Shown here in pieces: positions 1 through 47,203 of a stretch of DNA of 49,361 bases. A program made the position numbers and the translations under genes. Every line of letters starts with the position of its first letter. Within the stretch, counting starts at the first letter, position 1. The notes beneath the pieces were generated by a model, which made no database searches, was not told the DNA's origin, and was given only the letters and a program-made list of their open reading frames with translations. Source of the stretch: a virus; IMG/VR virus record IMGVR_UViG_3300009160_000007, positions 1 to 49,361 of that record; one strand, 5' to 3'.

Positions 1-38
1 GGGGGAAAGTTATGGCCCTGCTAGGAATCGAACCTAGA
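1..38. repeat. Terminal direct repeat, left copy (contig overlap)
   Basis: These 38 bases are identical to the last 38 bases of the window. The repeat covers part of the tRNA-Arg gene, so a biological terminal repeat of this size is less likely than an assembly overlap. The natural reading is a circular or circularly permuted genome of 49,323 bp. Confidence 0.9.
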
Positions 39-11756: not shown

Positions 11757-11761
11757 TTCCC

Positions 11762-14461: not shown

Positions 14462-14528
14462 ACCTTGTAGGACCAAATCTTTGAGCCACATTACCTTTCG
14501 TCTCTGCGGACGTTAAACGCTGACCTAC

Positions 14529-15479: not shown

Positions 15480-15491
15480 AAACCCAAGACC

Positions 15492-16823: not shown

Positions 16824-16835
16824 TCGTACGAGGTC

Positions 16836-17929: not shown

Positions 17930-17932
17930 TCT

Positions 17933-19635: not shown

Positions 19636-19638
19636 TTT

Positions 19639-19746
19639 ATGATCACCATCATCCTCATTTCCATCACCTTCCTTGGCGGAGTTTACGTCGGCGCGCGCTG
19701 GGCCGAAAAGCTCCGCGACGTCTACCATTCCGTCCTAGGTAAGTAA
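19639..19746 (+). CDS. Small single-span membrane protein, 35 aa
   Basis: A 35-residue ORF between the fibre and the next structural gene, 3 nt from each. The product MITIILISITFLGGVYVGAR forms one clear transmembrane segment (about residues 2-18), followed by a short amphipathic, charged tail (WAEKLRDVYHSVLGK). Such peptides can be holin-like or regulate lysis, or act in virion assembly; nothing distinguishes these. It fills the gap exactly, and the codon use is normal, so I consider it real but not certain. Confidence 0.55.
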   Translation: MITIILISITFLGGVYVGARWAEKLRDVYHSVLGK

Positions 19747-19749
19747 GCC

Positions 19750-20892: not shown

Positions 20893-20893
20893 G

Positions 20894-21655: not shown

Positions 21656-21679
21656 ACTCCGCCAGCAACTCCATAATTT

Positions 21680-23047: not shown

Positions 23048-23862
23048 TGCCCCCTCCCGGAACACCCAGTAACGATACAAGCCCGACGTCGTCGTACACG
23101 ATGCCGGTCATCCATACCGGCTACGGGTACAGCCTGTACGGCCGAAGTGCTACGGAGGAAATATCTTACGGACTAGACTCGTACATAGCCAACGCAACTA
23201 AGTGGGCTAGCACGAACCTGTCTCTGACCGGCTCTCTTGCCAGCCAGACAGTAACGAATGCTGCCACGCTGAAGTCGATGTTTACGTCGACGATGGGCAG
23301 CTCTGCTATCCCACTTGTACCGACTACGGCAGATCAGCTTTCCCGGCTATCAGAGCTAGCTCTTGCGGCCAAGTCGCTGCTTGAGAGCCCTGAGATAGAT
23401 GAGTCCGCTAACAACCAGATAGCCTCCGGGCTTAGCGCGGCGATGGGCGGGGGTCATAATTCTGTCAGCGCAATCAAGGATACCATCACCTTTGATCAGA
23501 AGCTCCAAGCCAAGCAGCTTGCCTTCACCGCGTACACGCAGGCCCTAGACACCTACTACAAGGTCTTCACGGCAACTGGCTCACAGCTGTCCGCTACGAC
23601 CAGCCAGAGCACGGCAACGGCGGCCTTGACTATACCTGTCGTAGCTCCGTTCGAATCTCAATTCGCGGCAGACGTGCTTACCGGATGGCAAGACACGCTG
23701 AACACCGGCCAGCTTAGGGATCAACAGATACGCCAGACCTATGAGGCTGGAGCTATCCTTGATACCTTCAACCCCGGCACCAACTTCTCCGCATGGAACG
23801 CTGAGTACGCTCTAGCTTACTGCGGTATCAAATCTCAGGCGGCCGCCGCCAAAGCAACCTAA
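23047..23862 (+). CDS. Putative internal virion protein, 271 aa
   Basis: A 271-residue protein at the start of a six-gene run that ends in the giant protein. It is rich in Ala, Ser and Thr with long helices (SELALAAKSLLESPEIDESA, LAFTAYTQALDTYYKVF, QLSATTSQSTATAALTIPVV) and lacks cysteine-rich or catalytic motifs. Proteins placed after the tail nozzle in podoviruses are usually ejection proteins that leave the capsid with or before the DNA; this composition fits. No family is recognised. The start and stop each overlap neighbouring genes by one base (TAATG). Confidence 0.5.
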   Translation: MPPPGTPSNDTSPTSSYTMPVIHTGYGYSLYGRSATEEISYGLDSYIANATKWASTNLSLTGSLASQTVTNAATLKSMFTSTMGSSAIPLVPTTADQLSRLSELALAAKSLLESPEIDESANNQIASGLSAAMGGGHNSVSAIKDTITFDQKLQAKQLAFTAYTQALDTYYKVFTATGSQLSATTSQSTATAALTIPVVAPFESQFAADVLTGWQDTLNTGQLRDQQIRQTYEAGAILDTFNPGTNFSAWNAEYALAYCGIKSQAAAAKAT

Positions 23863-27445: not shown

Positions 27446-28437
27446 TGATCGACGACCCAGAGGATATCGACCCGGACGTCCTCGCGGCTGCCGTTAGGTC
27501 CCAGCTAGACAACTACGACTCTGACACGGCCGATAGGTCTCCGCAGGGCTATGCCCCTGCGCAAATGTCTGACACTCAGGTAATTAGGGCAATGGGTAAG
27601 GACCCGCTGGAGTTGATGGACCCGAGCTTTGCGCGCGAGGCAACGGCGTACCGAGCTGCCGTCGGCAAGGATCAGGCCCTTCGTGCCAAGGCTGCCGCAG
27701 ACCAAGCCAAGCTGATGCAGAAGCAGATGGACCCTTCCTACATAGCCCAGCAGGTGTACGGCTCTACGGGCAACATAGGTGCGGCCCGAGTCATATCGAA
27801 ATCCAAGGGTCCAGCCCTATTTAACCATGGCGAAACTGTGGAAATGGGCCGGGGCGGTAGCTATGCCATTATACCCTCTGGAGAAATTATGGAGACCGGC
27901 CCTGATGGTAAACCAAAGCGAACCAGCATGAGTCATTACATACAGCGAAATGGGGTTAGTGTAGTTCCATTCATAGGCGGCGATGAGGCAGCTATAACTT
28001 GGAGGGGGGCAGCGGCCAAGACTAGCGAACTAATGGACGTCCTAGACCAGATTGAGGACCTTTACAATAAGCCCGGCTTTAAGAGTATGCCATTCAGCGA
28101 TACCAATAGGCAACTCGAACAGCTAGAGTCAGGCCTAGTGAATATTGTATCTCAGCTCAAAACCGGGTCAAAGAGTATGGCCGGCGTGTCTGACTTGGAA
28201 ATGGAGAACCTGCTTAAGGGATTACCAGCGGCCGGGTCTAACTTAACCCAGCCGGTTGCAACTGGACTTGAGCGAGTATCCAAGACGAGGGAGCAGGTAA
28301 GAGGAATACTGATGCGTACGGCATTGATGAACGGGCTTGTGCTTACGCCACTTAAGGCTAAAGCTGAAGTCACCGCAGGCTCTCCCATAGGCCAGCGATC
28401 ATCCTCTACACCTCCCGGACTAAATGGACCAAAGTGA
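27445..28437 (+). CDS. Putative internal virion protein, 330 aa
   Basis: A 330-residue protein immediately before the giant gene, overlapping it by 14 nt. The N-terminus is acidic (DDPEDIDPDVLAAAVRSQL), the first half Gln/Ala/Lys-rich helical (RAKAAADQAKLMQKQMDPSY), the middle beta-like with a Gly/Arg loop, and the end helical again (VSKTREQVRGILMRTALMNG) followed by a disordered tail. No family or motif is recognised. Close coupling to the giant ORF suggests the two products are made together and may assemble in the virion. Confidence 0.5.
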   Translation: MIDDPEDIDPDVLAAAVRSQLDNYDSDTADRSPQGYAPAQMSDTQVIRAMGKDPLELMDPSFAREATAYRAAVGKDQALRAKAAADQAKLMQKQMDPSYIAQQVYGSTGNIGAARVISKSKGPALFNHGETVEMGRGGSYAIIPSGEIMETGPDGKPKRTSMSHYIQRNGVSVVPFIGGDEAAITWRGAAAKTSELMDVLDQIEDLYNKPGFKSMPFSDTNRQLEQLESGLVNIVSQLKTGSKSMAGVSDLEMENLLKGLPAAGSNLTQPVATGLERVSKTREQVRGILMRTALMNGLVLTPLKAKAEVTAGSPIGQRSSSTPPGLNGPK

Positions 28438-31400
28438 TAACGAACAGGTAAACTCAGACGGACTAGACATACAGAAGACGCGAGATCTTCTGGCAAGGCA
28501 GGGAGTTCCCGTCGCAAGGCAGGCCCTCCCTGATTTTTTGGATCCAGTTGCAGCCGAGGAGTCACAGCAGGACCCGCATCTACAAGAGCTAAGGAATAGG
28601 GAATGGACCGGTAAAGATTACGCCGAGTTCCTTAGGTCAGAGGAGGGCGGAAAGTTTAAATTTTCATTCGACGATACCGGCAGGGAGGCGTTCAAGAAAT
28701 ACAAGCAGTACATGGCTGATAAGACCATGGAGTTTGTTGGCCCTGCAGAAATGGCGCTTCGTCAAATGGGTCAAGAAATAGGCGAAGGCATATCTAATTT
28801 CCCAAACCCGCTCACCGATCCTGCTGCCGCTGCAGCAACGACGGCAGAAGGTGCCTTTAGGGGCCTAAGGGACCTTTATGGAGTTCTGTGGCAGTCTGAA
28901 GACCCAAGTAGCCCTCTATTTAAGTTCAGGAGCTGGGCCACCGCGCTAGTAGGCAAAGATGATGGCGACATAGATTCGCAAATGCGCCAGTTCCATATGG
29001 CTCGCGAGCACAACGCAGCCACTTATGAGCAGAACTCCGTGCTAGCATCAATGCTTCCGGAATCTTGGAGGGATGGGTTCAGCTCAAAGGTGAACCAGAA
29101 AGGTTCTATTGGACTTGCGTACATAGCTTTGGATCTACCCGAAATGATAATGAGCGCGGGAGCTTCAACTCCAGCCTCTGCAGCAAGGATAGCAGCTATG
29201 GGCGGAAGCCATGCGGCCCGGGTTGCCAAATCAGCCAAAGTTGCTGACTCATGGATTCAGGCTACCGCAGGACGCTACCAGACTTTTGCACAGCGCGTTG
29301 CTGGCGGTGCGCTTGAATCAGCCGGTGGAGTAGCCCGCGCTCCGTTCAAGGCTATGTACGGAACCAGTCAAGCTGCCGCGCAGCTAGCCGGTGACTACGC
29401 TGGTAATGCTGTGCGAAACATGGCTACGGCTGAAATAGTTGAAGCTGGCGCCACACTACTTGGATCTACTGCCGTGCATCCTGTAGTCGGATTCATGCGT
29501 AGCTTTGGAGCTGAGGCGCTCGGAGAAGTCATGCAGGTAGCTGGCGCTGACATGGTTGATAGGGCTCTCGGCAAAACTATGGTCAGGGCTGACTCTCTTG
29601 GTGCGACTACGCTTGAGCGACTTGCGGCTGGCACAGCCAAGGGCGCGGACGCCATGTCGCGCGAAGCTCAGATTCTAGCTAAGGGCATCAATGCGACGAT
29701 CGGATGGGCTCCTTCACTTTCTGGAGCTGCCCTTAAGGCGGCCTACAGGGATGGAATGTTTGGAGCAGCACTAGGTTATGCCAACTCTCCGAGCGAAGGA
29801 GCTGGAGCCGGTATTGCAATGGGTACTGCATGGGGAGGCTTCTCTGGAAGTGTAAGGCATCTTCATTCATATACTCATTACGCCCCGCAAGACTCTAGGG
29901 TCGTTGATAATTTTAGGGACTATGTGATACCGGCGTTCGGCCGCGTTGCCGGCTCCACCAGCATGGAGATGGCAAAGCGGTTCTACGATCACGTCAACTC
30001 TTTCGGAGACCTTAGGACTAGCTCCATAGAACTTTCGCACATATCCACCTTGGTGGCGCACGAAGCCAGCCTTGTCGGCGAAGGGAACGTGATGTTCTAC
30101 TTCGGCAAGAGTGATCAGGAGTTCAGCAATGTGCTAGCCGAGTCCAACGTCAAGGGAGGCGACTATGATAAGCTCATGGACTCCTTCAGGACTATGGGCT
30201 CTGCAGCCGGCATGTTCGAGAAAGTGACCATGAATGATGGCACAGTTAAGAGACTGATAGCTATCAACTCAGACCTGTACAAGCCTACCACCGGCCGACA
30301 CGAAATCTCCCACGCCCTGTTTAGGTCCGTGGTCGAAGCTAACGCTGAGATGGATTCTGTTATCGATAAGGCAACCGGCCGATACATGGGTGACGTCTTT
30401 AACCCTGCCTACGCCAGCCGCATATTCGGAACCTCCAAGGATATGGGCGTAATGCCTGATGCAGCTTGGGAGTCTCTAATGACCAGCTACGGAGCTGCTA
30501 GGGACTGGACCGACTACGGCAAGCCAAGCGACCCGGAGATGGTGAAAAAGATAGGAGAGATGGCTAAGGCCAACTACGGAACCCTGCTCACCCGCCTTCG
30601 CGACCACCTCAACAAGGGCGTGGATATGCAGAAGTTTGAAGTCATGGACGACTTCAGGACGGCCACCAATATGGCCGAGGAAGCTTTCGCCTACTACGCG
30701 TCTGGTACCTCTAACGTTTTCCCGGTAGACAAGTACGTCAAGGACCCGGCCGCTCGCAACTTGCTCAGGTCTTGGGCGGAGAACAGGGCAGCTAGGAAGA
30801 ACAGCAGAATACTTTCGGGGCTCGAAGAAGCTGGCGTGGAGATCAAGGCCAAGTTCACCAATACCGACGGAAGCCCTAAGATACTGGACGACAACGGCAA
30901 CCCGGCCATCGAGACCTACATGTTCGATGACGGCGTCGTTGTCAGGACTCCGGGCATGGACTCATGGGTCGAGTCCGTGCTCAAGCAGGCGTACGCTAGG
31001 TCTGAGGTTCTGGTATCAACCCTTGATCCAATGCGTCAGGAAGCTTTCGCAAAGGAGCATGGCAAGGTGCACCTATTCAAGTCGTTGCCCTCCGGCGGCA
31101 TGAGGCTCAAGTCTCCCTCGGAGCTCGACGAGGCCTCCCAGATTCAGGCCAACAAGATACTCAGCGCCATACAGGGCGTGAGCGAAGATGTCAGGCCCGT
31201 CATCGAGTCTATGCCTGATGGCTCGGTTAAGCTCAGGCTTGAGACCGCTAACGCTGAGACGATGGCTGCCATCCAGTCCTCTGGAGCCCTGACACCTCAG
31301 GAGTTCAACGAGCTTTCCGCGATAGTAAAGATAGCTGAAAAGAACCGCATGGGCGACGTGACGTTCAATGTGATGACCGGAACCTTACTTGCGCACAGCA

Positions 31401-34400
31401 AGCAGGTGCGCAAAGCCGGCGGCGTTTATAGGCTTACAGGCTCCGACGTCCCTGTCACCTACAGGACTTTCATGCCTTACGCGGTTGAGGTAAATCTCAA
31501 GACGCACGACTCGGAGGGCAACCCTCTGCGCGCGGCCAAGGGCGGCATCCTGATCCACTCCGTCGACGTTGCTGCCGTGAACCGCAGGCTGATGAAGACC
31601 TTTAAGCGAGCTGACGTCAGGAGCATCTTTAACGGCAACTTCTCTGAGTTCGTGGACAGGTTCAACCTGTACGTATCTAACCAGTCCGGACTAAACGGAG
31701 CCAAGGTACCGAGCGCAGATCTATTCAGGGCTGAGTACGGCGACAGGGCAGAACGAGTAAGGGATATAATGTACGAGGCTTTTGGTGGCCGTAAGCGCAA
31801 AGATGACGCGTTCATCAACACCCCAGCTGATGGCTACATCGGCGGAGCAGATGACCCCAATAGGCCCTTCTTCACGATGCGTCTTGATACGCTCGCTGAT
31901 ATCAAGGTCCACCCGACGTCTTGGAACGTGCACAGCAAGGTGCAGCCCTTCCCGTTCGTTCATGTTCAGGGATATGATGGCATAGCTCGCAACTTCCAGA
32001 TCACCGGATTCACCGAGCGTGATATCGGTAACGGCAAGAAGTACCTCAAGGACAACAATGGGTTCGAGGTCTATGAGACCAAGACTGGTTTTGCCCTCTA
32101 TGATCCGTTTGGCATCAAGATAAGCGTATTCAAGACGGCCAAAGCCGCCATGAAGCGAGCTGGAGCTGAAGTCGCTCACATAAGCGAAGCCGACCTGCAG
32201 CCTGCGTCTGTCGACATGATCAACATGTCAAGTCCCCACGACGAAGCCCTAGCTAAGCTGGAGTCAACGACTGAGTCGCTTAATGTTCACGTTAGGTATC
32301 AGCTCTCCGGTCTGGTTAAGCACGTCAAAGAATCCAGCCACGGCGGCAAGAGCGTGGTTGATCACTTGTTTGAGTACGCATCCAAGGATTCCGGCGCTAG
32401 GTACTCCCATCCTCTTGGTGACGTTGAGAGCTCTTTCTCCAAGAAGTTTATCCCGCTGGTAGAAATACTTGGGGAAGCTGCCGGAGACTTTAACACCACC
32501 ATTGAAGTCGATGGCAAGAAGTACGACGTGTCTATGAGGGACACTCAGATAGCTTTTGCGGATGAAGACACTGGTGTAGCTAGGGGCACGGAAGTGGTTG
32601 GCACATTCCAGAACGAGCTACTGCGTGTTGATAAGTCTTGGTTTAAGCATCTGTACAACACCGACAAGGAGCTACTGTCTGATCAGCTTGCGCGTCGTAT
32701 GGCCATAGCGGTCAAGTACAACGCCCTTCATAAAGCCGGTAAGGTAAACCTTCCTACGGCCATGACGGCATCCGCCATCCAGAGCTACAGGAGGATGGGA
32801 GAGCTTATGGCCGAAGCGGCCGGCGGAGACAGGGATACTAGGGATGAAAACATATCTAAGCTGCTCGCTAAGCATGGAGAAGGCATGGCCCAGCTAGGTG
32901 CCGACATAGATTGGTCGTTCTTTGAAGCAGGAGACCCCACCAAGGCCAATAGGTCTAAGCAGCGCGGCCAATCAACGTCTTCATTCAACCCGTCTACGTT
33001 TACCAAGGGTGTCATCAGTGTGCCAGATCACTGGCAAGCTGCGCTTAACGCCATCGAGGTTGATGAGTCTATGGCTTCGCTACCTGACATCGAAGGCATG
33101 GCAATAGGAGCAGCAATAAAATCAGCCGCGCGGCAAGCTTACGGCGATAAGCTTGGTGGCATGCCTCCCGTGTATCTGGATGTGTCAGCCCTAACTCCTG
33201 ACCCCAAGATGCGTCCTCGCATTATGAACGCCCTCATGCAGGCAGGTGGCCGCGCGGGTGAGTTCCTAGAGTTCCATTCATCTAACACCGGGATCAGGGA
33301 CATACAGGGGGCCATTGAAAGCTACCTAGTCCAAGCAGAGAAGCACAGGCCGACTGGCGTAGATGATGCCGAGTACGCCAATGCCAATAAGCCAATGCGA
33401 GAAGGCATGGCCAAGCAGCTAATCTCTGACTACAGCGCTGCAGTAAAGCGACTGGCGGCCGGCGGTGGCATGTTCCAGAAGTCGGTAGCTGGCTTCTTTG
33501 ACAAGCAGGGCAAGCTTAGGCAGGAGGCTGGGACTAAGAAGGGCTTTATCACGTCTGCTGTCATAGCTGATTTTTCCAATCCGGACGTCCAGACAGTGGT
33601 GTCCATGACCAATTTGTTCACCGCGCTGCGCGAGATCACCAAGGAGATTAGCAAGGGTGACCGCGAGTCCTTGGCTGACCACCAGAGGGATTACATCCGC
33701 GTCCTGTCTTTGATCATGAGGGTCACCAATGACTCCAGCCTTATCTTCCATGAGATGAGGACGCTTGACGATAGGGGTATGAAGCCGGGCATGAGTGAAA
33801 TCAGGGCTAAGAGCGGACTATTCAATGGAGGCCATAATCAGGGCATGGATTTCTATACCCTACCTCCGAGTATCGGAGAGGTGGTTACTTCGACTTCCAT
33901 AAACGGGCAAGCAAAGAAGCGTAACATTGCCTACGTTCCTGTCAATGTAAACAGGCAGCCTCCGGGCAGGGCTCTAAGGATAGCCGAGGAGCGAGGAATG
34001 CACGTCGGCTCTAGTGGCATACCTGCCATGATAGCTGCACAGCCAAAAGGATCTAGCAGTCATGCAATAAGCATCGCTGACGTGTCACATATCGTCGGAA
34101 CCTCAACTGAGGTTAGGGCGTTCATGTCCAACACTAGCGGCAAGGCTATGAGCACTATAGACCCAAGCAGCCTTAAGAGGGGCGCTGGCTCTATCATACC
34201 GGGCGGCAACGCTTGGGATGGTATCATGCCTCCCATGGCCTTGCAGTTCTTCGCAAGCAAAGACGGCCCAGCTAAGCTGATGGCCATGATGCCTGACGCC
34301 AAGGAGGCTACCAAGGAAACGCTTCTTGCCCACATGTCACTAGCTCAGGCTATGGGTATCATGAGGAAGGTTGAGGATGATATGGTGAACGGCGGAGAGA

Positions 34401-37400
34401 TCAGGTCTGGAGAGATATCCTCCATGCTCAAGGAAGCCGGTGTGTACGGAGACAATATGATGTTCGTGGAGCAAGTGGTAGCTGGCTACGCCGACACAGC
34501 ATCCTCAGACCATAACTCCCGAATGGCTGGCGTCCTTAGGATAGGCCAGTACCTCGCGGCTCAGGAAAACTACTTTAAGCATAGTCTAGACTCTGATTCA
34601 TTCCCGTCTAACGGAAGCGCCAACAGGCTACTCGAGAAGCTTGGTGTTGATACTGCCAAAACCCCCGGAGCCGGCGCTAGGTATGTGGATATGCTTAGGC
34701 AGTTTATAAGGACCGGCAGCGTCGCCGACGTTGATGGCGACTACAGGATGGCCGTCAGGACGCTTGATGGTCCTGTGGATAGCCAAGGCAGCATCATGGG
34801 TGTAGGCTATGGCTCAAAGAAGATAGACTCTGTCCAGTCATCCAAGCTGATGATGCTTACCGGCAGCCAAGCTATAGCCAAGCTCGACGACGTTAGGAAG
34901 CGCGAGATGGAAAAGCTGGGCCTTATCGGCAGGATGGTAGATCACTTCGGCAACAGCTACGATTACTTTGAGATTTCAGACAGGAAGGCCGAGCTCAGCT
35001 TGCAGAAGTTTGGTGGCCGGATTGATGGCATGCTTACCGCAGGCATCTATAATGCGGATGAGAAGCTGAATAAGCTTATAGACCAGACGCTAGATACGCT
35101 TGTGTCTGATTCTGCAGTCCCGGTTGACGCCAGCCTGTATGACGAGTTCTACCGCAGCTTCAATTCGAAGGGATACACGCTTGGTGATATCATAACCCAC
35201 CCTGAGCTGTATGCTTTCTACCCGAACCTTGAGCACACAAGGTTTGAGCTGTCTCCAAATGGATCAACGTGCGAGGCGTCGTACAGCCCGATGGAAAACA
35301 TCTTCCGGATTTCCCCGCAAGCTATACTTGTTTCTGCCCTTGGTGACAGGATGAAGAAGCGGAGTGGCGGCGTGGATATAGACTACCAATCCTTCATGGG
35401 GCATGATGCTAACGTCGAGTACGTTCGCGGCCTGCTTCTCCATGAGATGCAGCATGCCATTCAAGAAGCTGAAAAGTTTTACCAAGCTGGGCATATTTAT
35501 ACCGCTAGCGACGTTGCTAATCTTGCCAACACCGCCGCCGGCCGGCCAGACCGGCTGGCTATGGCAGCCGGAGCCTACGCGGCTTCAGTGCCTAACCTTC
35601 CTATCTTGCTGGGCGGACCGGAACCAATGGGAATATTGGACTCACCCGAGAAGCAGCTAGCTCCTTGGACTGGCCTAGACGAGCACATCGTCGCGGCCAT
35701 GCGAACCTATCATCGCAACTCCGCCAAGCTGGTAAGCCATGTCAGAGACGCGTCAGGCAAGCTGGAGATCATCCGGCCTGATGACGCCACTGCGACCAAG
35801 GAGATCCAAAAGATACTTAACGCGCCGCTGGCCCACACTCTCATATCTGAGTTCATACCTCGCACCATAGCTTACTACACGTCGAGCAGGATGAAGGCTG
35901 AGTCCACCATGATTAAGGTGCTAGCCGGTTTGAGTGATGGAATAATGATGGCCGATGCCGTCGCTTACTTCGACAACATCATTAAGACGGCTGAGAGGAA
36001 CATAGAAGAAGCCAAGGTTCTCGCTGAGGCTATAAAGGTAGGAGACTTTTCGTCAGCGCAGAATGCTGCCAAGCAGGTATCACTAAGTAAGGCAGACTTT
36101 GATCGTATTGCTATAGGATCCAAGTGGCCGAGCTCGGTAAACGCCTTGCAATCATACGACCCAACCCTGATTAGGATGTCATCCGAGGTAAGCCTTGGAG
36201 CTACACTCACAGTTGCTTCTATAATCGACGAGGCAGACGCCATAAAAGCCCCGTGGGGATTCAAGGCCGCCAACACCTTCATGAAGCTTCTTGAGGGCGT
36301 GTACTACGGCACTGACCCGGACGAGATAATGTCTAACGTGACCGCAGACAGGTCTAGGATGTCTGAGTCTGAGCTGGCAGCTTCCCCTCGCGGGGTGGCC
36401 GAGAATACTTACGAGCGTGTAGCTAGGCTTGCTAGTAACAATGGGGAAAACCTTGGCCAGAGTGCTAGTAGCATATTCCGCAACCCTCCAAAGCTGAACA
36501 TGATCGGGGGAAGTGTGGGCGCGGAGAAAATGAACGTCAGCCCGTTTGGAGAGTCCGCGAACAACCTATTCGCCGGCGGCATGCGAATGCTGGCTAGGGC
36601 AAGCCTGCTTGGTCACTACGTCCATAAGGCCAACGCCGAGCTTAAGCACCTAGGCAAGCTCATGTACACCTCTAGGGGCTGGCACATTGGTGATGACGGC
36701 CTCCCCGTATACATTAGCGAGACTGGATTCCTTGCAGGCTCTCCCTTGTTGGGTCAATTCGGCGGAGACGTTAATAACCTAGCGGCCAATCAGGAGCAAG
36801 TCATCAGGGCTAAGCATGATGAATCCGCTGCGCGCAGAAATCTTACCGAGGAGCAAAGGCGTGATCTATTTGGAAATGCCAAGGACACTGACTCAGAGGA
36901 TGTAATAAGGTTCGGCAAGCTGCTTGTGGATAAGAGCTTTATCCCAACCCAGATGTACAAAAGTGGGGACATGGGTTTTCTTGGCGGCATAAGCAGGGAT
37001 GGAGGTAAGACTGTGACTATCTCGGACATCGCTGCTGCGATGGGCGCCAAGCATGTCATCGAGGAGCATATTGGAATGAGCAGCCGCGCGCTCAACGCCA
37101 TCTACAAGGCTGAGATACCGGAAGTGGTTGAGTCCCACAAGATCGTCGAGACCTTCAGGGCTGCCGGCCTTTCGTACGAGGACATCAACGTGGCCCACTT
37201 AGACCACATCGAAAAGAACTTTAAGGGCGTTAAGTTTACGCGAGGAGAGCTGGCCGACATGATCGCCATGATACATGACGTGCCGCTCCTAGATGTATCC
37301 GGAAGGGGTAACACCATACCGGCCATCATGAGGGACATGATGTCAGGCGTCGATAGCGCGGAGCAGTTCAGGAAGCTTTACAGGGCAGCGATGAACCCGG

Positions 37401-40400: not shown

Positions 40401-43400
40401 GCGCTGACGACTTGGAGCCGGGCAAATACATGCGAACAAATCATGAGCCTATTGCGGCCAAGCCTTACGATGGTGGCCTTGGAGCGGTTGGAGCCATGTT
40501 TATGTCTGAGGACCCTATTGATCTAATCGAGAGGGAGCCTGTGATGGAGTCTGGCAACGTACAGATACAGTTTGGCAACCAAGGACGAAGTGCGATCCCT
40601 GCTAGCGTGATTCGCGGATTCGTTCAGGAGTCAATTATCGGACGAGCCCAAAAGGACGGAGCTAAGACCATTGAGATAGCTCCAGCCGGCCAGCAGCTTT
40701 CTTACGGCGGACTAGGTGTGTCACAGATTGGCGGCTTTAGCTCTGCGGAGGGCGTACAGGAAGCCTCTGCTCAATTCCACGGCAGGGGAATGAGGTCTAT
40801 CAGCAAGACCACCTTCCAAACATACGGAAACGATAAAAGGAAACAGCCTACCATGCTCACCATGGAGGCGGCTAGGCTTAGGGGATTCACTCAGCCCCCT
40901 TCTGGCTCTAATTACGGAACTGGCTACATATCAGACCCCCACAGGGCTGGAGAGTTTGCTCCCAAGAAGGGCTACGCATGGAAGCGCCTTCCTGATGGGC
41001 GCATCATGATCAACCTCACCGGCGACCATCTTGGCTACAAGCAAGACTATCAGGTCAGGGGTGCTGTAAGGGCTGGTTATGGATTCAGCCTTTCCGAGGG
41101 CGTTGGATATGACCCTAACTCAGGGCTGCTGATACCGGGCAATATGCAGTCTCAGGCTACGACCTCTGACTTCCTTGGCATGATGAAGCACCCGCTTGCT
41201 TCCGCTTTCTCGCAAAAGGACCCGATGATGATGAAGGCTATAATCGACAGCGCCGTGCGCGACAGTCGAGGCATGCACCACACTCGCGGGAAAATAGATC
41301 CGATGCAGCCGATACTAGAAGGAATACCGGGGCACATGCTAGGGTCGATGGAAAGGGATCAATTTAAGGCCTTCCTATTGGACACGCGTATCCCAATTGA
41401 GCGCAGGGCTTTCCACGCTGCCACCATGAATGACATAAATGGGCCAAGCTCGTACACGTCATTCATTCTTCCCGCCGGAACTACAACTGAAAACCTAGCC
41501 TCCATACTTATGGCTATGCATGTTGAGCCAACACTTGGTGGCGCCTTCATTGAGTCGGCTACTAGAGAGAGGAAGCATAGGCTTAACGTTGGACACGAAG
41601 AAATATTTAAGGGAGATGCGCAAGCTCGAGGTATATTCACCATGAGCCAGATGGAAGGTGACTTTGGCATAGTTCCAAGCCGTCAGTCCGGCGCCTACAC
41701 TAAAGGCATATTGTCCGGACTTGAGGACAACGTGCACATGGGCATGTCAGTCGATCCGCACCTGATGGACGACGTATATCTTGCCGCGCACAAAATAATA
41801 AGCGGAGAAAGCGGTTACTTCCTGCCGGATACTGAAAGGACTCTTTCGATGAACGGAGACACGGGTCTAGCAATAGCCCAGATGTTCCCGGGCAGAAAAG
41901 ACCTGCTGGCCCATTCATGGGACTCCAAGGCTGCTAATGGAATCAAGGTGTGGAAGCGCACCAACATCATGAAGGATGAAAACTTCCGGGCGTTCGTCGT
42001 AGAAATGAATCACCCAAGCTCCTTCGGACTTGAAGGAGGCTTGCAGATCGGAAGGAAGGCCGTCGCTTTTAAGACCGAGGCCGAGGCGATCGCCTTCTCC
42101 AATAAGCTATCGTCAAGTATGACTGAGGCATCTGTGCTTAGGGCTCTAGCCGGCGGAGATTTCAGGATCGTTGAGCGACCAGACGAAGGTAAGGGAAGCA
42201 AGTTCTTTGCGGAAGCTAAGGTCAGGGAGATTGAGCGACTGCAGCCGTCTGTTGGTTTCTCGGGCGAGCTAGAGGGAACAGGAAAATACCGCGTGGGCGA
42301 TTTGGATATGGCTATGGACGTCCAGCAAGCCCGACAGGTTGGGAAAGCTTTGGGCCGAAATTTCCACCTAGAGTTCGACACTCCTGCCGTAAAGCTCGAG
42401 CAGATTACGGGCAGCTCAATCCCTGAGCTCGAAGATATGGTAAGGCAGAAGGTGAACTTCGGCCTGCCTCAAGGCGTTATGAACTTCGGATCAAGGGCTA
42501 TGAACGCCATCATCCGTGGCCTGCCGGGCAATAACAGGGACTTCCAGTATCTCAATGGTACGGAATGGTTCAGTCTGCTAACCAAGAACGGCGTATCAAA
42601 GGCAGAGATAAGGCAGACTGGCCTTGGGCACCTGCTTGCAAACAACCCGGCCGCCAAGTTCAGCAGGCAGGACATGGCTGAATTTATGGCCGCAGTATAT
42701 CCGACCATGCGTAGGTCGGAGCCGGCCATGTACCTAATGCATGCCGCGCAGCAGGCTTCAGCGCTTGGGTTTAACCCAGAGGAAAGCGTAAAGCCTCTTG
42801 GGAATAACACGTTCGTGCCTCCATTCATACACGACTCAAGGCTTCAGAGCAGGGCGAACCAGCTGATGGCCGTCGACGCGCTGCTAACAAAGCGTCTGGA
42901 ATTAACCACGCTGTACGAAAAGGTTTCTAGTGAAGGAGCTGATGAGGCAACCAAAGCCAAGCTCGCTGACATGGCTGGCTTTATCGAGGGCCACCTCAGG
43001 TCGTTCGCAGAGAAGATCGGAGTATTCCGAGCTGACAGGATAGATTCAGTCTCCCTATCTGACACAATCCATGGCAAGCTTGCTGAAATAGTGGCCAAGG
43101 AAGGAGAGCCGTTTGCTTCGTACGACTTTAGACAGCTCGAGCAATCGCGTCATGCGGTTAATGACAGGATCAAGGCGTTCGCCTCCGACGCTGCAATTAG
43201 GGCTATACTTGGTCCTGTAGCTGATGAAATAGGGCCATACATATCGTCCTTAGTAAGCCCCAACATGCCCCACGCGGCAACCAAGCCAACCAATGCGCTA
43301 GCTGCAACTCTGGAAGCTGGCAAGAGCACCGGGTTTGGATGGAATTCTGACTCCGAAGATTCATTGGGTCAGTCCATGCATTATTACGGAAGCTTCCCGT

Positions 43401-46400
43401 ACACCAGCTACATAGCTTCGCCTTATCAAGCGCACCACCAAGCGATCGTCAGGTACGCAGACAAAGAAGGCCTGTCTGATATAACTACTTACCTCAAAGA
43501 GGTTCGCGACAACCTGAAGGCTCGTAAGGAAAAGATAAGCAGGATGACCCCGGGGCCAGAGCTTGACGCTGAAAAGCAAAAGTACACCTCCGAGATTGCC
43601 CTGCAGCAGACCATACAGCGTGTGGCTGCGGTCAGGCTCGCAACAAGCAAAAGGATGGCGCATGACGACAATAGGAACCACGGGACGCACTTCGAAAGGG
43701 CTATGCCCGGCAACTCGTCGATGTCTGGTGGTGGCGGAGCATATGAGCTTGGCCACTCAAGGACTGGATGGGGAATGATGACCTCAGCCTTAGGTATAGA
43801 TGGCTTTGCTACACTTACCGGCATTGATCCTAATGGAGACCTGCCGCTCGCGTTCAGGCGTGAACCTATATCACTTCTCGAAGAAATTCAGTCAGACATA
43901 TTCCAGAAGGTTGATAAGATAGTTCCTTACAGCGACCCGGACATGTTCCTTCCTACCACCCTTGCGGAGCAAGAGGCTTTCGGCAGGTCTTCCGAGCTGG
44001 CCAAGCTCAATAAGGAGTACAAGGACCTCCTAGCTCTTGCCAATGACTCAAGCAGGAAGGCGGCAGAGCAGCTATCTACCATTATCGGTACTGGATCTGG
44101 AGGAATATCAACTGGCACCAAGGACTTTGATATTCTGGCTTCTAGGTTGTTCCTAGATCAGACCGACATCTTCCAGCGCTCGATGATGCACGAAGCTGTT
44201 CCGGCCCTACTAAAGAGGACTGGTCGTACGGCAAAGGTTCCTGACCGCATTCGCGAATCCATATCTCGCATGACTAATGGTCAGGTATCTCCTACCGAGG
44301 TGTTCGTCTATGACTTTGACCATGAGCTCATAGACGCCATCCGAAGCTACCCAAGTTTCGGGCCTGATACTGTAGATAGCGCTACGTACGAAAAGATGAA
44401 GCAGCGCATGATCGAAAACATAACGAACGCTGAGCATGCGGACCCATCAATGCGCAACCCAAGGTCTGAGCAAATGAAAGACAAAATGCTCAGAGACATG
44501 CGAACTGTTGATGGCGTTGCTCAGATTGCAAAAAAGCAGCTCGAGATGACGGCTGCCATTATCAATCGAGGCGTAGAGGCTATGCGAAACCAAGGCCTAG
44601 ACGCCCTGAAGAAGGAGCTTGATATGCTTGAGGCTGCTGGGGCTACCGGAGAAATGCATAGGTTTGTAAGCGAGCTGGTTAGCATTGGGCGCAATAGCTC
44701 AAAGATAGGAGACCTCATTGCCACTCACGTTGTCCGGTCTATGATCAAGGATGAGAAGCTGGCAACAGAGCTTGGCGGCCACATAGATGGAACCGGCGCC
44801 GTGGATTACGAGGGCTTAGTTGATAGGACTATTGAGCGCATCCGAAAGGATTACGCGGACAGTAAGTCATACATCGGCAAGTCGGTCTTGATCATACTTG
44901 ACGAGCTTAAGCGTCGTCCAGCACAGGCAAGGCCTCACTCCGAGGCCGCAAAGAGCTTCTCCAACGTTCTACACGAAAGCGAGAACGCATTGGCTAGCAG
45001 GTTTAAGCAGGCCTTAGTTGCGCTAGACGTTGATACTACTCCTCAAGATGTAGCCGACACGCTCGCAAATTGCCCTGAAGTTAAAGGCGACTTTGGTCAG
45101 GTATGGGTAAGGGTAAACCCAGTCGGCCAACTAGGACTTGGTACGGCCGGCAATGTCACCTTCAGGACGTTTGATACCAAGGAGCAATTCGTGGCTTATG
45201 GTTTGGCGCTGAAGAAAATGGGCATAAGCAATGGAGCCATAAACGTATACACTGCTCCATACCACAGGCATAATGGAAGCGCAGCCGGTGACTTCGCTAA
45301 AAACGTGGTGGAAATATATTCGGCTATGTCTGGTGGCCCCAAGTTCTTGGAAGCCGCTAACAGGAAGGCCGACGAGATAGCCGCCATGAGGAAGGTGGTT
45401 AAGGAAACCTTTAGCCCAAATAAGAGCGGCCATGTATCCATGCCAGATGGAGAGGACATAACTGTCTTCCCTGATTCCATGCCGTTTGCCGAAGATGGCG
45501 CCTACAAGACCAGCCAGCTAATAATGAATGTGCTGGATTCAATGAACCATGGCCAGCACGGCATGGGAATCATGGATGCTACTTACCAGATTCAGCGCGG
45601 CGGAGGCATAGCCACGCCTGCAGGTTGGCTTAGGATTGGCGGATCACAAGGCCACCTGCTCTCACTCAGGGATGCGGGCATGCCCAAGGATATGACCATG
45701 TATGTTAGTGGAGCCATCTTGGCTTGGGAAAAGAATACCGGCAAGTCAGTCAACGGGCCAGAAGGGCCTCACTCTGGATTCTTCCATAGGCTGGCCACGC
45801 TTGAAGTAGCTCAACACGTTGGTGAGCTTACCGGCGGCAAGGTGTTCACCCACGGAGGTCAAGAGGGTAAGCTGGCTGATCACTTTAAAATAGCTCTTAC
45901 GGCCCTTGGTCGTGAAGCAGAGAAGGCCTTCCCAGATGACTGGATGATGGCTTACCGGGGACGCGTCGGAACCTATACTGGCGCCCCAATAAACCTGTAC
46001 GGCCCAATATCAAATAGGGTGCACATTTATGAAGGCAAGAAGGTGGTCAATAAATCTCACACCGACAAGATAACCACCAAGGTTGGCTCTGAGGCTGGAC
46101 TTTTTGTGGCAGCTGGTGCCAATTCGAACTCTGCCGGATGGGGCTACATAGCTAACTATGGCCTGCCTCAATACGCCTTAGAGCTCGCCGTGCCCGGATC
46201 GACAGAAGCCTTCAAGCTTAACTACTCGCTAGATTCATTTGAGCGCCCCTCTGTCAATGTTGATGGCAACTGGCTAGTGCTAACTGACGCGAGCGGCAAA
46301 GTCATCGAAAAAATAGACCAGACTCAGGCTAGCCCTAGGCAGCTTGAAGCGTTCCGTGAAATGTATCTGCAGTCATCCAAGTACAGGGGTAACAACTGGA

Positions 46401-47203
46401 TGGTTCGCGCGTTCCTTAAGGAGTTTGGACCGGCTGGAGCTTACGTAGACTTCGGAACAATATCTCCTACGTCTATCATGAAAGAATTCGCCGGCAGCTT
46501 CCCGACGGGAGCCGACGAAAGCGTATTTGGTGACATGGACCTATCTAGGATTAAGGAGGCCATTCGTGCTAAGTATGTCGAAAAGGGTTTAATAGGTCCT
46601 CAGCTTACTGAGAAATTTGCCGGTGAAAATATGCCGTCTGGAATGGCCGGGTCCGGCATGGCGCCAAGCAGGGAATCAAACGAGGCTGTGACCCTTGCTT
46701 TAGTAGAGCGCGGGATGATAAACCAAGACCAAGTTGGGTCTTCAACCATGCCAATGACTGTTGCTGACAAATTTGAAATGAGGGGCGCCGGACTTCAGCC
46801 CTATGGCACTTCCATTAATCCGATGAACAGGAATATACAGCCGTTGATGTATAGGTCTGATCCATCTGGCACCCTTGCCGCAGGCATAGAGCACAAGGCA
46901 CATGTCGATGGCCTAGTGAAGCTATTCTTCCCTAGGGCCCACCTAGACCCGGCTGCATCTGCGGCATATGTGATAAGGATGACCAACCCCCTAACTACCA
47001 CGCTTGTGCACAGCCCGCTAGTTCGCACCAAGGAAATGGAAATCCAATTCAGGCGTAGGGTCATGGAAGGCATACCTCTCATGCAGATCACCGGCGCGGA
47101 TGTAAACGGAGGCGAGTCAATCAGTACCAATGGTGTCAAGAGGCTGGCCTTCCTGCTCAAGCGACGTGAAATGATGCCAACTGAACGTGATGAGCGCCGC
47201 TGA
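28424..47203 (+). CDS. Giant polyvalent (injected) protein with two zincin-like peptidase motifs, 6259 aa
   Basis: One uninterrupted ORF of 6259 codons, near 680 kDa. In outline: residues 1 to ~490 are helical and Ala/Gly-rich with segments that could meet membranes (AALGYANSPSEGAGAGIAMG). A first zincin-like domain has the motif HEISH (626-630) and a downstream Glu pair in AEEAFAYYAS (752-753). About 1060-1160 (RSIFNGNFSEFVDRF) resembles a segment often found next to such peptidases in other phage giants. A second zincin has HEMQH (2340-2344) preceded by YPNLEHTRFEL. Around 4711 (NGTEWFSLLTKNGVSKAE) and 5153-5158 (EEIQSD) is a module typical of phage polyvalent proteins. The remainder is unassigned. 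Proteins of this class are packed in the virion and injected; their peptidases and other domains are thought to act on host proteins or defences. Arg is largely AGG and Ile often ATA. Confidence 0.85.
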   Translation: MDQSDNEQVNSDGLDIQKTRDLLARQGVPVARQALPDFLDPVAAEESQQDPHLQELRNREWTGKDYAEFLRSEEGGKFKFSFDDTGREAFKKYKQYMADKTMEFVGPAEMALRQMGQEIGEGISNFPNPLTDPAAAAATTAEGAFRGLRDLYGVLWQSEDPSSPLFKFRSWATALVGKDDGDIDSQMRQFHMAREHNAATYEQNSVLASMLPESWRDGFSSKVNQKGSIGLAYIALDLPEMIMSAGASTPASAARIAAMGGSHAARVAKSAKVADSWIQATAGRYQTFAQRVAGGALESAGGVARAPFKAMYGTSQAAAQLAGDYAGNAVRNMATAEIVEAGATLLGSTAVHPVVGFMRSFGAEALGEVMQVAGADMVDRALGKTMVRADSLGATTLERLAAGTAKGADAMSREAQILAKGINATIGWAPSLSGAALKAAYRDGMFGAALGYANSPSEGAGAGIAMGTAWGGFSGSVRHLHSYTHYAPQDSRVVDNFRDYVIPAFGRVAGSTSMEMAKRFYDHVNSFGDLRTSSIELSHISTLVAHEASLVGEGNVMFYFGKSDQEFSNVLAESNVKGGDYDKLMDSFRTMGSAAGMFEKVTMNDGTVKRLIAINSDLYKPTTGRHEISHALFRSVVEANAEMDSVIDKATGRYMGDVFNPAYASRIFGTSKDMGVMPDAAWESLMTSYGAARDWTDYGKPSDPEMVKKIGEMAKANYGTLLTRLRDHLNKGVDMQKFEVMDDFRTATNMAEEAFAYYASGTSNVFPVDKYVKDPAARNLLRSWAENRAARKNSRILSGLEEAGVEIKAKFTNTDGSPKILDDNGNPAIETYMFDDGVVVRTPGMDSWVESVLKQAYARSEVLVSTLDPMRQEAFAKEHGKVHLFKSLPSGGMRLKSPSELDEASQIQANKILSAIQGVSEDVRPVIESMPDGSVKLRLETANAETMAAIQSSGALTPQEFNELSAIVKIAEKNRMGDVTFNVMTGTLLAHSKQVRKAGGVYRLTGSDVPVTYRTFMPYAVEVNLKTHDSEGNPLRAAKGGILIHSVDVAAVNRRLMKTFKRADVRSIFNGNFSEFVDRFNLYVSNQSGLNGAKVPSADLFRAEYGDRAERVRDIMYEAFGGRKRKDDAFINTPADGYIGGADDPNRPFFTMRLDTLADIKVHPTSWNVHSKVQPFPFVHVQGYDGIARNFQITGFTERDIGNGKKYLKDNNGFEVYETKTGFALYDPFGIKISVFKTAKAAMKRAGAEVAHISEADLQPASVDMINMSSPHDEALAKLESTTESLNVHVRYQLSGLVKHVKESSHGGKSVVDHLFEYASKDSGARYSHPLGDVESSFSKKFIPLVEILGEAAGDFNTTIEVDGKKYDVSMRDTQIAFADEDTGVARGTEVVGTFQNELLRVDKSWFKHLYNTDKELLSDQLARRMAIAVKYNALHKAGKVNLPTAMTASAIQSYRRMGELMAEAAGGDRDTRDENISKLLAKHGEGMAQLGADIDWSFFEAGDPTKANRSKQRGQSTSSFNPSTFTKGVISVPDHWQAALNAIEVDESMASLPDIEGMAIGAAIKSAARQAYGDKLGGMPPVYLDVSALTPDPKMRPRIMNALMQAGGRAGEFLEFHSSNTGIRDIQGAIESYLVQAEKHRPTGVDDAEYANANKPMREGMAKQLISDYSAAVKRLAAGGGMFQKSVAGFFDKQGKLRQEAGTKKGFITSAVIADFSNPDVQTVVSMTNLFTALREITKEISKGDRESLADHQRDYIRVLSLIMRVTNDSSLIFHEMRTLDDRGMKPGMSEIRAKSGLFNGGHNQGMDFYTLPPSIGEVVTSTSINGQAKKRNIAYVPVNVNRQPPGRALRIAEERGMHVGSSGIPAMIAAQPKGSSSHAISIADVSHIVGTSTEVRAFMSNTSGKAMSTIDPSSLKRGAGSIIPGGNAWDGIMPPMALQFFASKDGPAKLMAMMPDAKEATKETLLAHMSLAQAMGIMRKVEDDMVNGGEIRSGEISSMLKEAGVYGDNMMFVEQVVAGYADTASSDHNSRMAGVLRIGQYLAAQENYFKHSLDSDSFPSNGSANRLLEKLGVDTAKTPGAGARYVDMLRQFIRTGSVADVDGDYRMAVRTLDGPVDSQGSIMGVGYGSKKIDSVQSSKLMMLTGSQAIAKLDDVRKREMEKLGLIGRMVDHFGNSYDYFEISDRKAELSLQKFGGRIDGMLTAGIYNADEKLNKLIDQTLDTLVSDSAVPVDASLYDEFYRSFNSKGYTLGDIITHPELYAFYPNLEHTRFELSPNGSTCEASYSPMENIFRISPQAILVSALGDRMKKRSGGVDIDYQSFMGHDANVEYVRGLLLHEMQHAIQEAEKFYQAGHIYTASDVANLANTAAGRPDRLAMAAGAYAASVPNLPILLGGPEPMGILDSPEKQLAPWTGLDEHIVAAMRTYHRNSAKLVSHVRDASGKLEIIRPDDATATKEIQKILNAPLAHTLISEFIPRTIAYYTSSRMKAESTMIKVLAGLSDGIMMADAVAYFDNIIKTAERNIEEAKVLAEAIKVGDFSSAQNAAKQVSLSKADFDRIAIGSKWPSSVNALQSYDPTLIRMSSEVSLGATLTVASIIDEADAIKAPWGFKAANTFMKLLEGVYYGTDPDEIMSNVTADRSRMSESELAASPRGVAENTYERVARLASNNGENLGQSASSIFRNPPKLNMIGGSVGAEKMNVSPFGESANNLFAGGMRMLARASLLGHYVHKANAELKHLGKLMYTSRGWHIGDDGLPVYISETGFLAGSPLLGQFGGDVNNLAANQEQVIRAKHDESAARRNLTEEQRRDLFGNAKDTDSEDVIRFGKLLVDKSFIPTQMYKSGDMGFLGGISRDGGKTVTISDIAAAMGAKHVIEEHIGMSSRALNAIYKAEIPEVVESHKIVETFRAAGLSYEDINVAHLDHIEKNFKGVKFTRGELADMIAMIHDVPLLDVSGRGNTIPAIMRDMMSGVDSAEQFRKLYRAAMNPDAPNYYAPCMRAFINESLSGGNSNSDRAMPLRSLLKVDSTTEAGAGRFFLMEAIVETIQFNWNANEYIQRFVGGQAGKDLTKRIANALADRFPEHTDRGGYSDRDDVARMNIRVETSMDAMGQTRRGNSSDFITQASAYYRFASRLERLLVELTPFAEKLAQKMEKSIRDTGEVIAGSSHTQRFQEMLAAFYSEALTAGLKDVVVSRVGEDGQKRIELSSREFQMMSQGKRSFYDGVKVNETIVRRGIGSPFMAEGSSGSVLHGLVGGASEAFAASARAYGLQSVMAGTSVHPTVPALSDTAYKPDKVLRNMHRSITFGPGPDVPDTVNLTNGDEQIAIGLRSAEGGMNKAEASLSTSLYESKIPNADYDSEVPAYIRHAQFAQRALMIRANDLFKYISSMDGEEGLDKRIQILAGSSRIRGASMRELMLANPDTLRILTEPNIGEQSAKALGFLRMAETIDQQAYNIGLGNVTGIDQGSWDSIPATDRRDAGGYKPQSQAALVRHYTREGALVVTSAYEALGSTMEPHTASLLNGLTSTAASKKQKAVASEPLRVVSRTSATGHNLLAEFIRDAEAEEAERVVNLDYTSADYEQKMLQMRIPRIARILGDFAAEAGTRFSVDREVVADPGLLRYVVSRSFDSKDSLPTLIQKEYYKNGFIRNIAHTLDGTIPLLAAAQLLEATHLPRNTALSKKLRMWLKADKSRYHWHVAEKAPEVSDSQKLSLISSMSSAMAVMSVAHMRRPFMNSFGDMSSPMSMEVLAKVIGGAATESDNFDFQSMARMAQGSMLNSVSIDAIKQFATLTGLAETQRTIRSLRKTGVNFNKAELLAIEAAVGTIAKRDVIDRMDADAFIHDVLGINPDTNTLLGGRNNYDLNWAAAKDRLSPLSLKKALVTTNNWIDASAYQEVMAKALKGLSEIDGATPIISRNATTGKYILPHKDIDAKGFVIDSSLHGGSMRGVFRLTDHSSIEPMKMDTSILEPDVREARRWADDAAYEGVGADDLEPGKYMRTNHEPIAAKPYDGGLGAVGAMFMSEDPIDLIEREPVMESGNVQIQFGNQGRSAIPASVIRGFVQESIIGRAQKDGAKTIEIAPAGQQLSYGGLGVSQIGGFSSAEGVQEASAQFHGRGMRSISKTTFQTYGNDKRKQPTMLTMEAARLRGFTQPPSGSNYGTGYISDPHRAGEFAPKKGYAWKRLPDGRIMINLTGDHLGYKQDYQVRGAVRAGYGFSLSEGVGYDPNSGLLIPGNMQSQATTSDFLGMMKHPLASAFSQKDPMMMKAIIDSAVRDSRGMHHTRGKIDPMQPILEGIPGHMLGSMERDQFKAFLLDTRIPIERRAFHAATMNDINGPSSYTSFILPAGTTTENLASILMAMHVEPTLGGAFIESATRERKHRLNVGHEEIFKGDAQARGIFTMSQMEGDFGIVPSRQSGAYTKGILSGLEDNVHMGMSVDPHLMDDVYLAAHKIISGESGYFLPDTERTLSMNGDTGLAIAQMFPGRKDLLAHSWDSKAANGIKVWKRTNIMKDENFRAFVVEMNHPSSFGLEGGLQIGRKAVAFKTEAEAIAFSNKLSSSMTEASVLRALAGGDFRIVERPDEGKGSKFFAEAKVREIERLQPSVGFSGELEGTGKYRVGDLDMAMDVQQARQVGKALGRNFHLEFDTPAVKLEQITGSSIPELEDMVRQKVNFGLPQGVMNFGSRAMNAIIRGLPGNNRDFQYLNGTEWFSLLTKNGVSKAEIRQTGLGHLLANNPAAKFSRQDMAEFMAAVYPTMRRSEPAMYLMHAAQQASALGFNPEESVKPLGNNTFVPPFIHDSRLQSRANQLMAVDALLTKRLELTTLYEKVSSEGADEATKAKLADMAGFIEGHLRSFAEKIGVFRADRIDSVSLSDTIHGKLAEIVAKEGEPFASYDFRQLEQSRHAVNDRIKAFASDAAIRAILGPVADEIGPYISSLVSPNMPHAATKPTNALAATLEAGKSTGFGWNSDSEDSLGQSMHYYGSFPYTSYIASPYQAHHQAIVRYADKEGLSDITTYLKEVRDNLKARKEKISRMTPGPELDAEKQKYTSEIALQQTIQRVAAVRLATSKRMAHDDNRNHGTHFERAMPGNSSMSGGGGAYELGHSRTGWGMMTSALGIDGFATLTGIDPNGDLPLAFRREPISLLEEIQSDIFQKVDKIVPYSDPDMFLPTTLAEQEAFGRSSELAKLNKEYKDLLALANDSSRKAAEQLSTIIGTGSGGISTGTKDFDILASRLFLDQTDIFQRSMMHEAVPALLKRTGRTAKVPDRIRESISRMTNGQVSPTEVFVYDFDHELIDAIRSYPSFGPDTVDSATYEKMKQRMIENITNAEHADPSMRNPRSEQMKDKMLRDMRTVDGVAQIAKKQLEMTAAIINRGVEAMRNQGLDALKKELDMLEAAGATGEMHRFVSELVSIGRNSSKIGDLIATHVVRSMIKDEKLATELGGHIDGTGAVDYEGLVDRTIERIRKDYADSKSYIGKSVLIILDELKRRPAQARPHSEAAKSFSNVLHESENALASRFKQALVALDVDTTPQDVADTLANCPEVKGDFGQVWVRVNPVGQLGLGTAGNVTFRTFDTKEQFVAYGLALKKMGISNGAINVYTAPYHRHNGSAAGDFAKNVVEIYSAMSGGPKFLEAANRKADEIAAMRKVVKETFSPNKSGHVSMPDGEDITVFPDSMPFAEDGAYKTSQLIMNVLDSMNHGQHGMGIMDATYQIQRGGGIATPAGWLRIGGSQGHLLSLRDAGMPKDMTMYVSGAILAWEKNTGKSVNGPEGPHSGFFHRLATLEVAQHVGELTGGKVFTHGGQEGKLADHFKIALTALGREAEKAFPDDWMMAYRGRVGTYTGAPINLYGPISNRVHIYEGKKVVNKSHTDKITTKVGSEAGLFVAAGANSNSAGWGYIANYGLPQYALELAVPGSTEAFKLNYSLDSFERPSVNVDGNWLVLTDASGKVIEKIDQTQASPRQLEAFREMYLQSSKYRGNNWMVRAFLKEFGPAGAYVDFGTISPTSIMKEFAGSFPTGADESVFGDMDLSRIKEAIRAKYVEKGLIGPQLTEKFAGENMPSGMAGSGMAPSRESNEAVTLALVERGMINQDQVGSSTMPMTVADKFEMRGAGLQPYGTSINPMNRNIQPLMYRSDPSGTLAAGIEHKAHVDGLVKLFFPRAHLDPAASAAYVIRMTNPLTTTLVHSPLVRTKEMEIQFRRRVMEGIPLMQITGADVNGGESISTNGVKRLAFLLKRREMMPTERDERR

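Follow-up and report, generated by a model that had tools for sequence, protein, structure and literature searches.

A single gene fills more than a third of the phage genome described here, and its 6,259-aa product is probably a "polyvalent" ejected virion protein of record size, "largest" being meant only relative to the proteins compared here in a nonexhaustive survey. Proteins of this kind were already known; the novelty lies in a length of more than 6,000 aa, in the fraction of a small genome taken up by one gene and in its fixation across a lineage. The window, i.e., the whole stretch of 49,361 nucleotides analyzed, carries a 38-bp direct repeat at its ends and is therefore complete as a circular genome of about 49,323 bp. 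The giant ORF accounts for 38.0% of it, in line with the original prediction of a single 6,259-codon ORF covering about 38% of a phage genome.

28424..47203, + strand: giant ORF (ATG start; 6,259 aa, 682 kDa, pI 6.3, 3 Cys), predicted to encode an ejected polyvalent virion protein

The giant ORF is intact and conserved

The translation contains zero internal stops over 6,259 aa, and the probability of that many sense codons arising by chance at 53% GC is ~1e-117. A metagenomic assembly and an unusually long ORF nevertheless raise the possibility of an artifact, that is, of genes fused by sequencing error or chimerism. Relatives were found in IMG/VR via the major capsid protein and TerL, and they form a large group of ~48-kb phages. 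The homologous region is stop-free in 48 other records that cover it partly or wholly, one of which (G001) hardly differs from the window and probably stems from the same population. In the 18 complete relatives, the giant measures 5,632 to 6,459 aa and takes up 35 to 40% of the genome (near-complete contigs); the region is also stop-free in about 30 partial contigs. Identity to the window protein ranges from 94% down to 18%, with length kept throughout. Dozens of independent contigs, some with as little as 18% identity, keep this frame unbroken, and selection is purifying along the entire chain (dN/dS against the 94% relative G003 of 0.12 overall and of 0.06 to 0.23 across all 500-aa slices). 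These results refute an artifact, for which we see a negligible chance. The giant ORF is real, intact, conserved and under selection. The earlier description of a frame open from end to end is thus confirmed in the window and in its 18 complete relatives; that reading was to be abandoned if relatives had the region split by true stops, and none of the 48 records does.

Conservation is uneven along the genome and along the protein. Between G014 and the window, the capsid protein and TerL are 86 to 92% identical, the giant 49% and its N-terminal block 75%; the giant is a fast-evolving protein with a slow core. As for the host, TerL relatives occur in the genome collection only in two MAGs labeled Verrucomicrobiota (51% identity), which is a hint and no more.

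Genomic context of the giant gene

The giant gene follows a packaging and structural module and four smaller genes and directly precedes a holin-like gene:

10116..23862, + strand: packaging and structural module (TerL, SU10-type portal, scaffold, major capsid protein, collagen-like fiber, head-closure-like protein)
23862-24854, + strand: predicted smaller ejection (conduit) protein, 330 aa
24851-26053, + strand: predicted smaller ejection (conduit) protein, 400 aa
26066-27445, + strand: predicted smaller ejection (conduit) protein, 459 aa
27445-28437, + strand: predicted smaller ejection (conduit) protein, 330 aa
47187..47537, + strand: holin-like gene (PHROG 6384, E 6e-4)

Judged by its predicted products, the gene set of the module is that of a short-tailed phage. 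All four genes upstream of the giant are cysteine-free, and the 26066 product has a Gly-rich hydrophobic stretch. They gave no significant family matches, and gene 27445 diverges too fast to serve as a query for further relatives. The early genes on the minus strand include an ERF-type annealing protein, an IstB/DnaC-like ATPase and a PD-(D/E)XK nuclease (92-805, 3121-3888 and 4866-5744); no DNA or RNA polymerase was recognized among the seven early genes scanned.

A late gene of such length could also encode an external structural protein, such as a tail fiber, an adhesin or a tape measure. However, a short-tailed gene set with an SU10-type portal leaves no long tail to measure, and the ORF is devoid of fiber or tandem-repeat signals, with a collagen-like fiber encoded separately at 18208-19635. 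Together with a cysteine level that is that of ejection proteins and not of tail proteins (see below), these features make an external structural role very improbable. The predicted tail fiber gene itself holds collagen-like tandem repeats at 18933-19368, in units of 18 bp and 99 bp.

Cysteine is nearly absent from the giant and from proteins of its probable class

Three of the 6,259 residues of the giant are cysteines (0 to 6 across all 19 complete members), and the four upstream genes have none in 1,519, compared with 29 in 4,151 (0.70%) in the other late genes (p = 7e-11). The same contrast is found in seven podoviruses whose ejection proteins are either established or annotated as such; these proteins contain 9 cysteines in 17,777 residues (0.05%) versus 132 in 20,929 (0.63%) for portal, scaffold, capsid and tail proteins; the N4 vRNAP has 0 in 3,500. 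A second, independent set of 61 nonredundant phage proteins, picked only by the EEIQSDW motif, yielded 15 cysteines in 69,995 residues (0.02%), against 855 in 106,976 (0.80%) in neighboring ORFs. Phage proteins that are ejected or that bear EEIQSD thus seem, in general, to be almost free of cysteine. Since scaffolding proteins are also cysteine poor (zero in T7, P22, SP6, P-SSP7 and phiKMV) and epsilon15 is a weaker case (0.26%), cysteine poverty marks the class and is not proof of ejection. We found no statement on cysteine exclusion from ejection proteins in the literature searched, most subscription papers and preprints lying outside it, and neither the paper on the N4 structure nor the review of ejection proteins mentions cysteine.

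Anatomy of the giant protein

The family alignment consists of conserved islands separated by indel-rich linkers, onto which the following elements map:

28586..32143, + strand: N-terminal core (~aa 55-1240), the part with the highest conservation, to which most of the ~1,500-aa protein of a sister lineage aligns collinearly
29744..29857, + strand: Gly-rich invariant stretch (aa 441-478; family alignment), candidate membrane-active segment
30221..30703, + strand: zincin-like domain 1 (aa 600-760; H626 E627 H630 and E753)
31421..31873, + strand: most conserved segment of the giant (aa 1000-1150; family alignment)
34901..35473, + strand: zincin-like domain 2, phage polyvalent type (aa 2160-2350)
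37067..37276, + strand: duplicated ~70-aa element, copy 1 (aa 2882-2951; hhalign)
42467..42730, + strand: duplicated element, copy 2 (about aa 4682-4769; hhalign)
43679..43924, + strand: H..GH.R ... EEIQSD..Q element (aa 5086-5167; prob 72, E 3.3e-5)
45464..45616, + strand: second half of the EEIQSD module (aa 5681-5731; PF...YK...A...G...DA..Q..R)
46061..46453, + strand: GY..NYG.P / SKY.G / FLKE domain (aa 5880-6010), conserved, only in the giant's own lineage

Two AlphaFold2 (AF2) models of moderate quality (mean pLDDT 64.5 and 69) were obtained; that of the core is nearly all helical over ~aa 80-510 (low confidence) and alpha/beta over aa 510-1260. Ten residues of the Gly-rich stretch, which may be membrane active, are invariant (G451, G459, G463, G467, W470, G471, G472, S474, G475 and R478). 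The segment at aa 1000-1150, with conserved R1003, R1014, D1029, D1048, R1113, D1114, E1118, D1127, N1132 and P1134, has no known homologue in a PDB profile search. A further conserved island spans aa 4140-4770, and the internal duplication of aa 2882-2951 at aa 4685-4759, within the element at aa 4682-4769, reached an hhalign prob of 92.5 and an E value of 5e-7 in 435 comparisons. With its several islands and this duplication, the 6,259-aa giant is a large multidomain polypeptide, as are polyvalent proteins, which often exceed 2,000 aa.

A sister lineage (TerL 64 to 65%; G035 and G037) shows the same gene order with a protein of 1,478 to 1,575 aa in the giant's place, shorter and not split. 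The 1,575-aa version has zero cysteines and lies after a head-closure homologue and cysteine-free genes. It is collinear with aa 55-1238 of the giant (hhalign prob 99.9, E 1.5e-36, 936 columns) and lacks the ~5,000 aa that follow. Because the match is confined to aa 55-1238, the giant looks like an ancestral core of ~1.2 kaa to which an extension of ~5 kaa was added; the tree being unrooted, the sister lineage may instead have lost the extension.

The zincin-like metallopeptidase, the hub domain of the polyvalent class, is recognizable in the giant by sequence homology and motifs. Zincin 1, modeled by AF2 as strands followed by the HExxH helix, is the only one of the two that keeps the full set of candidate zinc ligands. 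In one clade of the family it has the form HEXXXH, a variant described for polyvalent-protein metallopeptidases (MPTases) (PMC5512222). Zincin 2 displays FEFSD, H2259 in DHxxLYxxYP, and H2340 E2341 Q2343 H2344, and a third zinc ligand is not evident. It matches gp60 of Pseudomonas phage H66 (prob 93, E 3.3e-7) and is also homologous to distant phage ORFs. Many other phages carry zincin 2 relatives as small ORFs of ~340 to 450 aa, so the MPTase also exists outside giant chains. An otherwise different phage (G006, a 40.3-kb contig) shares the zincin 2 region only, within a 3,806-aa ORF that is, as far as its sequence tells, another giant of the same kind.

For the EEIQSD module, a canonical version was built from 80 phage loci fetched by the EEIQSDW pattern; its order is GVK..GL..TKxE, then AH.R..EEIQSDWHQ, then PFKK.W..A..GYD.I..T.G..Q..RY. 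The giant has these elements in the order known from other phage proteins, at about aa 4682-4769, aa 5086-5167 and aa 5681-5731, so that the module is stretched. The first matches the pre-EEIQSD element of other phages, GVK..EL...GL...L...VTK.E (prob 81, E 1.2e-5), for which copy 1 of the duplication (aa 2882-2951) gives E 0.13. The second has invariant E5153, E5154, Q5156, S5157, D5158 and Q5161, and the third is in canonical order and register, with a weak E value of 0.12 when taken alone.

Database searches beyond these elements returned little. Scanned in 1,300-aa slices against Pfam and PHROGs, the giant gave nothing above the cut-off, and neither did four conserved blocks of 19 members against Pfam, with a weak PBECR1 match in 2 of the 19. 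PDB profile searches with the four blocks yielded nothing significant, nor did PDB fold searches with both AF2 models (best match, zincin 1pwu, E 0.08). The AF2 model of the core has significant fold matches to viral proteins only, several of them annotated "large polyvalent protein associated domain" or "ART-PolyVal-like," names that are automated. Host-modifying enzyme domains (ART, methylase or helicase, as well as nuclease or kinase) were absent at Pfam significance from the 19 members, and disparate catalytic domains are hinted at only by the names of distant fold neighbors. When thirds of the giant were compared with GenBank phages by tblastn, only the zincin 2 stretch was hit, in 20 H66-like records. 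The early statement that most of the length matches no nameable domain therefore stands for Pfam, PHROGs and PDB sequence searches, whereas family profiles do place several segments. The polyvalent motifs noted at the outset are supported by the zincin 2 match to H66 gp60, the canonical order of the EEIQSD module and the polyvalent-named fold matches.

Comparison with known ejected proteins

A close parallel in gene arrangement is H66 gp60, a 3,787-aa "PLxRFG domain-containing" protein of an F116-like Hollowayvirus that, according to its record, was verified in the virion by mass spectrometry. Like the giant, it is encoded by a single huge late gene directly before the holin (followed in H66 by endolysin and Rz); it has 1 Cys, and the three genes before it are almost cysteine-free, as are those upstream of the giant. 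It is 1.65 times shorter, does not match the giant outside the zincin region and is annotated with a methyltransferase-like domain, none of which was found in the giant. Polyvalent proteins as defined by Iyer et al. 2017 (PMC5512222) likewise are very large and multidomain, bear zincin MPTase(s) and are encoded in an ejected-protein context. The giant differs from them in the absence of a recognized host-targeting enzyme domain, in exceeding 6,000 aa and in occupying 35 to 40% of a small genome across its lineage. The antirestriction proteins of the P1 DdrB/DarB type are, by description, similarly large and delivered with phage DNA, as the giant presumably would be; P1 DdrB has an MPTase domain (PMC5512222), and the DarB-type protein of Serratia phage Parlo reaches 3,764 aa (PMC6606913). 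Unlike in DarB, no helicase or methylase of that kind was found in the giant.

In T7, gp14, gp15 and gp16-type genes are ordered from small to large with the largest last (PMC8954989), and gp15 and gp16 are cysteine-free. The giant is, in the same manner, the last and largest gene of a putative ejection cluster and cysteine poor, and gp16-like proteins measure 609 to 1,337 aa (PMC8954989). When T7 gp15/gp16, SP6, P22 (including gp16) and N4 vRNAP were compared with the giant family profile, no homology was detected. Given this lack of homology to gp15/gp16, we propose that the giant works like T7/P22 gp16 without filing it as a member of that family.

N4 gp50 (3,500 aa), the closest giant analogue, combines an HExxH domain, zero cysteines and smaller ejection proteins encoded alongside, a setting matched by the giant if the latter is indeed ejected. 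Large size, an ejected-type gene position and a zincin could also point to a giant RNA polymerase carried in the virion, as in N4 or crAss phages, to initiate early transcription. However, the giant shows no sequence or profile similarity to N4 gp50, no polymerase domain appeared in the Pfam and PDB searches, and the sole DxDGD motif (aa 2102) falls where conservation is low. We consider this reading highly unlikely and dropped it.

Codon usage and phage tRNAs

The genome encodes four tRNAs:

13..84, - strand: tRNA-Arg(CCT), reads AGG, the giant's most enriched codon
6637..6712, - strand: tRNA(CAT), 84% identical to E. coli tRNA-Ile
48626-48711, - strand: tRNA-Ser(TGA), reads TCA, also enriched in the giant
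48777-48860, - strand: tRNA-Leu(TAG), reads CTA, also enriched in the giant

Given its identity to E. coli tRNA-Ile, tRNA(CAT) is probably a tRNA-Ile2 and should read ATA, the second most enriched codon. The AGG/ATA-rich usage that the giant was said to share with neighboring late genes is indeed shared and is stronger in the giant: AGG makes up 52% of its Arg codons, versus 34% in other late genes and 13% in minus-strand early genes, and the ATA shares are 45%, 35% and 10%. The giant alone uses 195 AGG and 149 ATA codons. Ranked by enrichment in the giant over early genes, the codons of the four tRNAs are 1st, 2nd, 5th and 11th of 61 (rank-sum p = 1.4e-4), and the relative G002 has the same four tRNAs. 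The match between these tRNAs and the giant's favored codons offers a concrete reason for tRNA carriage.

A model for synthesis, packaging and delivery

The analysis establishes the intact, selected gene, its homologies, the gene order and the cysteine and codon signatures; from there we infer the presence of the giant in the virion, its ejection, its copy number, the action of its payload and the reason for its purge of cysteine. Delivery together with the DNA is indicated indirectly by gene position, by the cysteine signature and by the mass spectrometry annotation of H66 gp60. The giant would be made late, aided by phage tRNAs for AGG, ATA, CTA and TCA, and packed in the head in few copies. 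At infection it would pass out by way of the portal and short tail as a mostly unfolded thread, accompanied by the four small cysteine-free proteins encoded upstream, and these may help to build the conduit across the envelope. As an ancestral ejection core, the N-terminal ~1,240 residues may remain at the envelope in the manner of T7 gp16 or the N4 vRNAP N-terminal domain. The ~5,000-residue extension would be the payload, which refolds in the cytoplasm and affects the host during the first minutes after entry. The purge of cysteine may reflect passage through the oxidizing periplasm or a tight channel, in which disulfides would block the chain.

The original prediction held that a protein near 680 kDa must fit inside the capsid or be processed. 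Size, however, does not impose processing: the N4 head holds a zincin-bearing protein of 383 kDa in about four uncut copies (PMC12633501, PMC5512222), and by our estimate, which takes a standard protein volume and a cavity of ~52 nm, four copies of 682 kDa would fill <5% of the interior of a T=7-size capsid. The idea of a delivered, self-cleaving polyprotein fares better in its first part, which agrees with the polyvalent similarity and the ejection-type cysteine signature, than in its second. Self-cleavage, in which zincin 1, perhaps with zincin 2, would cut the chain before packaging or after delivery, is compatible with ejection since it concerns the form delivered. It could draw on the HExxH and E753 kept by zincin 1, on the polyvalent-type HEXXXH in one clade, on the indel-rich linkers between islands and on the proposed processing of P1 DdrB before packaging (PMC5512222). 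Yet N4 vRNAP is packaged unprocessed despite its MPTase/HExxH domain (PMC5512222, PMC12633501), no conserved cleavage-site motif was recognized in the islands (without a dedicated search), and the single unbroken frame is kept in all members. We regard self-cleavage as possible but rather unlikely; the reading we favor overall is that of an ejected polyvalent protein.

A bolder version, in which the ~680-kDa chain traverses the tail uncut, as the largest single chain known to do so, and exemplifies a rule that ejected proteins of tailed phages exclude cysteine, is quite possible but falls short of probable. The giant is ~1.8 times the size of N4 vRNAP and 4.7 times that of the largest gp16-like protein (PMC8954989); nothing relevant on the longest phage proteins was found in the literature searched, the scope of which left aside most subscription papers and preprint servers. 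The upper bound for what a ~50-kb phage packs and delivers would thereby be set far above the ejection proteins compared. The core of ~1,500 aa in the sister lineage and the 5,600 to 6,460 aa found here form a natural pair for following how injected effectors may be built by extending an ejection protein. The cysteine rule may make the question of which phage proteins are injected answerable from sequence, and it is testable by a single-residue change in a model phage. If the bolder version is true, a short-tailed lineage devotes more than one third of its genome to one injected polypeptide, and runs of cysteine-free genes would reveal a phage's injected payload from sequence alone.
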